From: Desulfobaculum xiamenense
Lineage (GTDB): Bacteria; Desulfobacterota; Desulfovibrionia; Desulfovibrionales; Desulfovibrionaceae
Reading direction: 5' to 3'
Length of the DNA: 64,000 nucleotides
Assembly (NCBI RefSeq): GCF_011927665.1
Contig: NZ_JAATJA010000001.1
Coordinates: 1,097,019 to 1,161,018, forward strand
In this document: one piece after another, positions 7,338 to 9,784 of the stretch
How positions within the stretch are numbered: the stretch's first letter is position 1
How the letters are laid out: the number at the start of each line of letters is the position of its first letter
Translations under genes and position numbers: made by a program
The notes under the pieces: model-generated
Told to the model about the DNA's origin: nothing
What the model saw: only the letters and a program-made list of their open reading frames with translations
The model's database searches: none

Positions 7338-8993
7338 CTACCCGGCTCCCCACAGCGCCGCGATGCGCGCGCGGACCTCGGCCTCGCGCCGGGCGTGCTC
7401 GCCTTCGAGACGGGCGAGGAGCGCATCGGCCTCACGGTCGAGATCGTCAAGGGTTCCGGAATTGTCGACAACTTCGGCGCAGCGGCTCAACTTGTCCGCC
7501 TCGGACCACTGCCACGACTCGATGAGCGCGATGGTGGCATCGTCCCACCCACGCGCCATAAGCCGCCCTCTGCGCACGTCCTCGGGGCAACGCACGCCAA
7601 CGGCGATGTCCGCCTGCTCGTTCTGCACGTCCGCACCGCCCTCGACGAGAAGCGGCACTTCCGCCACGGCGACAGTCGCCCCCGTATGGGCGTCCCAGAA
7701 CGCGTTCAGGCGGTGATCCACCAGCGGATGCACGATACCCTCAAGCTCCTTGCGAAATTCTGCGGACTCGCGCATGGACGCAAGCACCCGCGCCTTGTTC
7801 ACGGGACCGCCGTCCGGGGCGAACTCGGCACCGAAGCGACGCCGGATGAGCACCCAGCCGTCCTCGCCCTCGGCGTACAGCTCGCGGACAACGGCATCGG
7901 CGCTGAACAGCGGCACGCCGCGCCGTTCGAGCATCGCGCTCAGGGCGGACTTGCCGCAGCCGGGCATGCCCACGATGCCGACGCGCAGCGTGGTTCGGGC
8001 CAGATGGAACATGAGGCGACGGAAATCCTCGGGCGGAGCCTGCATGAAATCCAGCCGCTCGCCGGTTTCCGGATGTTCGAAGCCCAGCCGCCACGCGTGC
8101 AGCATCTGCCGGGGCGCTAGGGCCGGGTCGCACCCCGTCTCGCGCAGCCACTGCTTGTGCTGGCGCGCTCCGTAGACCTCGTCGCCCATCAGCGGATGGC
8201 CAATGTGCGCCATGTGCACGCGAATCTGATGCGTGCGGCCCGTGAAGATGCGCACCCGCACGAGGCTTGCGCGGCGGTCCGGGCTGGACCACAGCACTTC
8301 CCACGCGGTGCGCGCCTCGCGCCCGCCCTTCTCGGTCACGGCCATGCGGGTCTTGTGCCGCGGATCGCGGCCGATGGGCGCTTCGATCTCGCCATGGGAC
8401 GCGCGAGACGTCGAGCACGGCACGCCATGCACCACGGCGAGATAGTGCTTCTCCACCCGGCGCTCGGCGAAGTCTTCGGACAAATCGAGGCGGGTGCCCT
8501 CGTCCAGCGCCACCAGAATGAGCCCGGAGGTGTCCTTGTCGATGCGATGGACAATGCCCGGACGCTCCCCTTCCATGTCGAGCATGCCGGGGTAGTGGTG
8601 CACCAGTCGGTGGACCAGCGTGTTCTCCGTCTGAGTCGGCGCGGGATGCACGGTGAGTCCGGCGGGCTTGTTGAGCACCACGAGGCTCTCGTCCTCGTAC
8701 ACGACATCGAGATCGCCCTCCTCGGGCGTCAGGTCGCCACCGGGAAGGTCAACGAGCAGAGAGACGGACTCCCCGCCTTCCAGCACAAGCCGGGGCTTGG
8801 TCGTCACGCATCCGTCCACGGTCGCCTTGCCGGCCTTGATAAGCCCCTGCAATTTGCTGCGGGACAGCCCGCTCTCGCGCAGTTCCCCGGCGAGGAAGAC
8901 ATCCAGCCGTTCTCCGGCCATGCCCTCGGGCACCACCGCATTCCATACGCCACCGCTCGTGGCGGATTCGTCAAATATCGCTTCGTGTGTCAT
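7338..8993 (-). CDS. Bifunctional RluD-type pseudouridine synthase / dephospho-CoA kinase (CoaE) fusion
   Basis: 551 aa. Residues about 20-80 form an S4 RNA-binding domain. Residues about 95-325 are an RluA/RluD pseudouridine synthase with catalytic D152 in HRIDKDTSG and GRTHQIRVHMAHIGHPL, expected to modify 23S rRNA. From about 335 comes a dephospho-CoA kinase domain with P-loop 342-349 (GMPGCGKS), SADAVVREL, IVHPLV and VAEVPLL, the last step of CoA synthesis. The frame is continuous, with no stop between the halves. I start at the ATG at 8993; frame upstream is open but not homologous. The RBS is weak. A frame error joining two genes cannot be excluded without raw reads, but the join is clean. 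Confidence 0.85.
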   Translation of the reverse strand: MTHEAIFDESATSGGVWNAVVPEGMAGERLDVFLAGELRESGLSRSKLQGLIKAGKATVDGCVTTKPRLVLEGGESVSLLVDLPGGDLTPEEGDLDVVYEDESLVVLNKPAGLTVHPAPTQTENTLVHRLVHHYPGMLDMEGERPGIVHRIDKDTSGLILVALDEGTRLDLSEDFAERRVEKHYLAVVHGVPCSTSRASHGEIEAPIGRDPRHKTRMAVTEKGGREARTAWEVLWSSPDRRASLVRVRIFTGRTHQIRVHMAHIGHPLMGDEVYGARQHKQWLRETGCDPALAPRQMLHAWRLGFEHPETGERLDFMQAPPEDFRRLMFHLARTTLRVGIVGMPGCGKSALSAMLERRGVPLFSADAVVRELYAEGEDGWVLIRRRFGAEFAPDGGPVNKARVLASMRESAEFRKELEGIVHPLVDHRLNAFWDAHTGATVAVAEVPLLVEGGADVQNEQADIAVGVRCPEDVRRGRLMARGWDDATIALIESWQWSEADKLSRCAEVVDNSGTLDDLDREADALLARLEGEHARREAEVRARIAALWGAG

Positions 8994-9034: not shown

Positions 9035-9784
9035 TCACGGCATGTAGGCCTGCGCCACGACGAACATCTCGTCGTAGGACAGCTTTCCGCGCAGTGCCAG
9101 CGCCAGCTCCGCCGCCATGTTCATCTTCAGCCGGGCCTCGCGCACGAGGCCTTCGCACCGCGTGTCCACGCAGGCCTTTATGAAGCTGCGGTCGAATCCG
9201 TCCTCGACCATGGACAGCGCCTCGCGAAACAGCAGGCAGCGCGAAGTCTCCGCGAACGTCCGCATGCTTCCGGCACCCTCGTGCCGCGCCCAGAAGACAT
9301 AGAACATGAGCTTGACGAGCAGCTGGTCGGCTGCCGTGGTGTAGTCGATGGTGACGGTGTATTCGGTTCCGCTTCCGGCGCGAGCCTTCTTGACCATTTC
9401 GAGCGCCATGCGGGAAATCTTCTCCTCCGGCATGAGCTGCGCGGGAAAGTGCGCCGCCATGCGCACAAGGGCCTTGCGCGGATTCTCCCCGGCGGACATG
9501 GACAGCACGGCCTCGCGGATGAGTCCCTGCCGAAGCTGCATACCGCGCACGACCGTTTCGGCCTTGAAACCGGCCACGCGCAGGAACTGATCGTCCGAAA
9601 GCCCAGTGAAGCACGATTCGAGGAGATACCGGATGTAGGGTTCCTCGGTGCGCCCCGCCTCGTCGAGGGCCAGCTTCGGCGCGACCTTGCCGCCCATGAT
9701 CTTCTTGAGCGACAGCCAGTAGGCGGCGATGCCTTCCAGCGGCATTTCCGTAATATCGAGTATCGTTTCGTTTTCCGTGCTCAC
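9035..9784 (-). CDS. Hypothetical protein, 249 aa
   Basis: I do not recognise this protein. It is soluble-looking and mostly helical, with no signal peptide or membrane segment. The middle contains a run of charged helices (EEKISRMALEMVKKARAG) and the C-terminal part is rich in Met, Ala and Leu. It is transcribed 41 bp ahead of the RluD-CoaE fusion and in the same direction, so it may open that operon. The upstream region (9785-10024) is shared with the divergent PilZ gene. Codon use looks like its neighbours, so it is probably a genuine lineage-specific gene. Confidence 0.7.
   Translation of the reverse strand: MSTENETILDITEMPLEGIAAYWLSLKKIMGGKVAPKLALDEAGRTEEPYIRYLLESCFTGLSDDQFLRVAGFKAETVVRGMQLRQGLIREAVLSMSAGENPRKALVRMAAHFPAQLMPEEKISRMALEMVKKARAGSGTEYTVTIDYTTAADQLLVKLMFYVFWARHEGAGSMRTFAETSRCLLFREALSMVEDGFDRSFIKACVDTRCEGLVREARLKMNMAAELALALRGKLSYDEMFVVAQAYMP

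Follow-up and report, generated by a model that had tools for sequence, protein, structure and literature searches.

A single reading frame in the 64,000-nucleotide stretch of Desulfobaculum xiamenense DNA analysed here (the window; contig NZ_JAATJA010000001.1, positions 1,097,019 to 1,161,018) joins an rRNA-modifying enzyme to an enzyme of CoA synthesis. The locus therefore raises the question of whether such a fused protein truly exists, how it arose and whether the two activities depend on each other. The features concerned are, in window coordinates:

7338..8993, minus strand: fused gene of 551 aa, RluD-type 23S rRNA pseudouridine synthase plus dephospho-CoA kinase (conserved frame in relatives, domain matches)
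8001..8924, minus strand: RluD half, residues 24-331, S4-like N-terminus and RluA catalytic domain (TIGR00005, PDB 2ist as top fold match, D152)
7989..8000, minus strand: join, residues 332-335, where the C-terminal helix of the RluD half (322-331) leads nearly directly into the first CoaE strand (336-342) (AlphaFold2 model, join alignment)
7434..7988, minus strand: CoaE half, residues 336-520, with P-loop 342-349, D366, H422, P447-L448, E451, Q495, K501 and N511 (PF01121, TIGR00152, residues kept in 49-51 of 51 fused proteins, fold match to PDB 4i1u)

The sequence-only reading had described one uninterrupted frame with S4 and RluA/RluD domains followed by CoaE. The single 551-aa frame is indeed present, read from 8993 to 7338 on the minus strand; the plus strand has an internal stop across the same interval. 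PF00849 (residues 104-263, 113.8 bits) and PF01121 (residues 338-516, 91 bits, cut-off 27) exceed their Pfam cut-offs, as do the NCBIfam models TIGR00005 for the RluA subfamily (residues 24-328, 260.3 bits, curated cut-off 192.7) and TIGR00152 (residues 338-520, 79.7 bits, cut-off 65.55). The synthase and kinase assignments thus hold, but the S4 domain was not reported by the Pfam S4 model in the fused protein at E<=0.001 and is placed through alignments to TIGR00005 and E. coli RluD that span almost their whole length. Because the score with the RluD equivalog PRK11180 (218.6 bits) lies below its cut-off of 351 bits, the N-terminal half is classified here as RluD-type rather than as proven RluD.

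RluA/RluD synthases share the motif HR(L/I)DxxTSG, which bears the catalytic aspartate, and RluD acts on uridines of helix 69 in 23S rRNA. Both signatures picked out from the letters, HRIDKDTSG with D152 and the P-loop GMPGCGKS at residues 342-349, are in place. D152, which we take to be the catalytic aspartate of the RluD half, is matched by Asp in 51 of 51 aligned fused proteins, the alignment covering 51 of the fused loci at hand. The P-loop fits GxxGxGKS, and the CoaE half carries the D, H, P-L, E, Q, K and N conserved in stand-alone relatives: G342, G347, K348, P447, L448 and N511 are kept in all 51 fused CoaE halves, D366, H422, E451 and Q495 in 50, and K501 in 49. Judged by these kept residues, both halves look active. 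Two features count against an active kinase half. The position of the first Asp in the DxD of the five solved CoaE proteins compared is S364 in the window's protein and Ser or Cys in most fused relatives. PF01121 scores are about 87-130 bits for the fused CoaE halves listed and lower for unlisted ones; most stand-alone CoaE of the phylum score 130-211 bits and a minority 97-125. The AlphaFold2 model of the fused protein has a mean pLDDT of 91.4 and a pTM of 0.80. In a Foldseek comparison with the PDB, E. coli RluD (2ist) ranks first and solved dephospho-CoA kinases (4i1u and others) appear lower down; among the 50 chains listed, none is described as holding both enzymes.

A profile search finds PF01121 only once in the window's genome, which answers the earlier suggestion to look for a stand-alone coaE elsewhere: no second match was found. 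Together with the presence of coaD and the absence of the archaeal-type kinase (PF04019) from this genome, this suggests that the fused CoaE half is probably the cell's dephospho-CoA kinase, and its status as the sole PF01121 copy argues that it would be the part that phosphorylates dephospho-CoA. PF00849 is present in four other genes of the genome, two of which (L083 and L084) have long branches far from the fused clade in the RluD tree. Directly upstream of the fusion, after a 41-nt gap, lies a 249-aa ORF without a Pfam match (9035-9784, minus strand); a rhomboid protease gene lies directly downstream.

The RluD-CoaE fusion is real and conserved throughout the Desulfovibrio order of sulfate-reducing bacteria. 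Pooled searches for the same architecture found a spanning or fused-length frame in 227 of 234 genomes of the order, the other seven being cut by contig ends, frame-broken or without a CoaE match. In a whole-protein search of 80 of these genomes, mostly ones outside the PF01121 listing plus exceptions, 73 have one stop-free frame across the join. The frame is broken in G093 and G051 and cut at contig ends in G315 and G008, and no CoaE match was found in G079, G133 and G333; none of the 80 has intact rluD and coaE genes side by side. A PF01121 search of the order matched 334 of 348 genomes, and frames of at least 440 aa are present in 146 of the 150 listed among these, genomes known only from this listing being judged by frame length alone. 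Three of the four others (G050, G058 and G037, but not G051) have the fused frame according to the whole-protein search. Named relatives with the fusion include uncultured Desulfovibrio and Pseudodesulfovibrio bins and Salidesulfovibrio brasiliensis (L005). An assembly or sequencing artefact that deleted a stop between two genes is refuted, for although single frame breaks occur in some assemblies (G093, G051 and L005, in the last within the N-terminal part and not at the join), the same unbroken join recurs in dozens of independent genomes, single-contig ones among them, and relatives that all keep two genes, the other outcome that would have spoken against the fusion, are excluded as well. 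In G093, a two-contig genome, the break lies at a G run within the CoaE half (L165, G093:C1:31000-36000) and stems from either a sequencing error or a real mutation.

The join itself is short. Its length is identical in 48 of 51 aligned fused proteins, with one extra residue in L090 and L091 and an insertion just before the join in L166; the latter (genome G178) spans about 46 residues and leaves the frame open. It had been stated that neither a stop nor a ribosome-binding site marks this place, and this is borne out: the window's fused gene has no stop codon at the join, and start codons with an upstream Shine-Dalgarno 5-mer show no enrichment there (4 of 51 fused genes; control windows, 4.8%). 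An internal start with its own ribosome-binding site was rejected on this ground. A broader version of the idea, that an internal start near residues 325-336 yields a separate CoaE besides or instead of the fusion, draws on the overlapping gene pairs of outgroups, in which coaE begins at this very place, on a Met just ahead of the first CoaE strand in several relatives and on in-frame start codons that are somewhat commoner near the join (47/51 fused genes) than in control windows (76%). Nevertheless, the positions of these starts are scattered among fused genes and the Shine-Dalgarno-preceded ones are not enriched over the control, making a hidden two-gene unit very unlikely. It would also account for one published observation. 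Published fitness data from D. alaskensis G20 (PMC5193443) give Dde_1447, labelled ‘dephospho-CoA kinase’, a score of -4.71 when growth is limited by phosphate; in stationary cultures replete with phosphate, the scores are -0.14 and -0.25. Transposon mutants of this gene are therefore viable, which would be odd if Dde_1447 were the fused sole CoaE.

Considering the evidence for its origin, we favour a bifunctional protein whose two activities are independent, with a single origin, in the order's ancestor or earlier, when an adjoining rluD-coaE pair merged; we assign this reading a probability of roughly 0.8. In the CoaE-domain tree, which omits L102 (no P-loop pattern match) and the decayed L185, the 49 fused rows group together in a single clade (SH-aLRT 99), to which none of the 44 rows not fused to RluD belongs. 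Likewise, the RluD tree, built without L102 and with a selection of 40 non-fused rows, places its 50 fused rows in a single clade (SH-aLRT 96). Both trees are quick searches without bootstrap, and a single fused clade in each suggests that the fusion likely happened once. Moreover, in a phylum sample of 395 genomes, 17 of them from the window's own family, every unbroken match over both halves among the matches listed belongs to that family. Among the same listed matches, no outgroup has an unbroken RluD-CoaE frame, and in outgroup genomes G513 and G433 the match covers both halves with a stop between them.

The gene arrangement in outgroups points to how the merger may have come about. CoaE was found in 75 of 80 outgroup genomes searched, a set picked from genomes with a listed RluD and thus biased to RluDs close to the query. 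By coordinate comparison, 20 of the 75 have rluD and coaE side by side (within about 230 nt, on one strand), and seven more have them 0.8 to 1.6 kb apart; in the other 48, no coaE match lies within 1.6 kb of the rluD listed. Many of the outgroup genomes are drafts that split the two genes between contigs, so that a neighbourhood may be missed. The statement that the two enzymes have no known link was consequently too strong. We read closely 21 pairs, the 20 neighbours and L051: in 16 of them a possible coaE start comes 1 to 29 nt before the rluD stop ends, and 10 of these 16 lack any later start ahead of the P-loop. In L139, L154 and L155 the two genes are in a common frame with a single stop between. 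Adjoining genes with mostly overlapping ends imply that a fusion would be a small step from the pair. The ancestral state would have been a neighbouring, probably overlapping and probably translationally coupled rluD-coaE pair, which lost its stop or shifted frame once to give the merged gene; the direction of change, gene pair first and fusion later, is what the outgroup arrangements suggest. In a wider scan with 80 loci listed, which bears on whether other phyla have the fusion, L002-L006 are fused and L051 has two neighbouring genes, and no CoaE was found near the other 74 within flanks of up to 3 kb. In G390, a 452-aa HNH-endonuclease ORF (L163:2158-3513) separates rluD from coaE; the two genes are about adjoining in its close relative G595 (L150), and the ORF is possibly a mobile insertion.

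The fusion combines two familiar enzymes in a new way; the literature search found no description of it, and protein-domain databases, which stood outside that search, probably list the architecture. E. coli RluD (PDB 2ist/1qyu) shares the S4 plus RluA catalytic architecture and the HRLDxxTSG aspartate and is the best fold match, but the fused protein has a C-terminal kinase and falls under the PRK11180 cut-off. Solved CoaE proteins (PDB 4i1u, 1uf9, 2if2) have the P-loop, the conserved D, H, E, Q, K and N and the fold in common with the fused CoaE half, which differs in being joined at its N-terminus, in having mostly Ser or Cys for the first Asp of DxD and in forming its own clade. Dephospho-CoA kinase is also part of a longer protein in mycobacterial CoaE, with its extra C-terminal domain (PDB 6n39, PRK03333), and in the animal bifunctional CoA synthase (PDB 2f6r); the partner domains there are unrelated to RNA modification, that of CoA synthase being the preceding CoA enzyme. 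Within the same phylum, several other families have proteins in which DUF169 (PF02596) precedes CoaE, both domains being over cut-off in 6 of 6 scanned (L202, L203, L204, L206, L207, L208). CoaE is N-terminally fused in these as in the RluD fusion, with an unrelated partner, and a protein whose upstream part is DUF169-like by eye (L178) falls outside the RluD-fused clade in the CoaE tree. Fusing of CoaE is therefore not specific to RNA modification; no paper with both CoaE and DUF169 was found in the literature search. On the synthase side, TrcP of Vibrio cholerae also joins an RluA-family enzyme to another enzyme, which is described as a cytidine deaminase acting on the same RNA (PMC9553926). 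The shared RNA target gives TrcP an evident joint purpose, unlike RluD-CoaE.

In two genera, g55 and g58, the CoaE half has decayed. D366 is lost in all four genomes (G050, G056, G057, G058), and H422, E451, Q495 and K501 are lost in the three with sequence that far, the alignment of the decayed stretches limiting trust in these positions; D152 of the RluD half is kept. Where the end of the decayed half was read, in three genomes, it remains joined to RluD and has nearly its full length. For three pairs within g58, dN/dS is 0.53-0.70 in the CoaE half versus 0.16-0.27 in the RluD half (ratio 2.0 to 4.3), two of these comparisons covering only 64 CoaE codons and some pairs approaching saturation of silent changes. 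The same ratio ranges from 0.8 to 1.8 across seven control pairs with an intact fusion, of which one is saturated at silent sites. Furthermore, the G050 and G058 assemblies contain a separate coaE (L087 and L088), which groups with stand-alone CoaE of other families in the CoaE tree. The PF01121 search of the order gave no match in G056 and G057, whose CoaE halves are decayed. The G056 contig with the matching downstream genes starts just past the place of the G058 coaE, so that the site lies beyond the contig end, and G055, with an intact fusion, has no coaE at the matching place.

Two related organisms are mixed in the G058 bin, and contamination was considered as the source of its separate coaE. 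Contig C263 matches G057 at 97% identity, and the coaE contig C122 matches both at 87%; contig C136, with the decayed fusion, is 86-88% identical to G057. As C136 and C122 are alike in their divergence from G057, the decayed fusion goes with the coaE contig and not with the G057-like part, and contamination was rejected. For G050, the coaE contig shares dispersed repeats with many contigs of its bin, of which C9, C14, C60 and C145 also match the G058 coaE contig (L190); this supports, but does not prove, that the gene belongs to G050. Two further dispersed repeats beside the G050 gene (L191:1866-2340) match many contigs of the bin at 76-98% identity. L190 also carries, at 9065-9226, a dispersed element of about 150 bp. 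Its long ends are complementary (folding z -5.8 and -8.6), genomes of family f6 contain many matches to it (82-96% identity), and it scores below the gathering threshold of every Rfam family; it looks like a short inverted-repeat (MITE-like) element.

With RluD intact, CoaE decayed and a separate coaE in two of these genomes, CoaE seems able to leave the fusion, and RluD to do without a working CoaE half. One could suppose instead that the CoaE half acquired an additional role that needs no catalysis, in 50S maturation or in the working of RluD, such as RNA or CoA/ATP sensing; this is quite unlikely, but if true it would explain why a decayed CoaE half was kept on RluD in g55 and g58 once CoA synthesis had passed to a separate coaE.

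The sequence-only reading had also raised coordinated supply of ribosomes and CoA, for which we found no positive evidence. Such coupling, with CoA/ATP binding in the CoaE half tuning rRNA modification or ribosome binding tuning CoA output, would fit a short join of constant length, a predicted domain arrangement that is fairly confident (pTM 0.80), the persistence of the fusion across the order and the near-full-size CoaE remnants of g55 and g58. However, decay of CoaE alone in these genera argues against obligatory coupling. Elsewhere in the phylum, moreover, coaE is fused to DUF169 or separate from rluD, at more than 1.6 kb from the listed gene or elsewhere in the 48 outgroup genomes noted above, and the listed outgroup matches hold no unbroken RluD-CoaE frame, G513 and G433 having a stop between the halves. 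Coupling is thus unlikely. For the bifunctional protein with two independent activities, both the catalytic activities and the independent working of the halves are deduced from sequence. The N-terminal half would act as the cell's RluD-type 23S rRNA pseudouridine synthase and the C-terminal half would make CoA from dephospho-CoA and ATP, and the lasting benefit may be just the equal, coupled production of two housekeeping enzymes.

Collectively, the locus offers a clean case of a fusion from an adjoining gene pair that became fixed across a bacterial order and includes a probably essential enzyme, and the decay of one half in a sublineage provides a natural test of whether the fusion matters. 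For Desulfovibrio-type bacteria, transposon or knock-down data on ‘dephospho-CoA kinase’ or ‘RluD’ may reflect both functions together.
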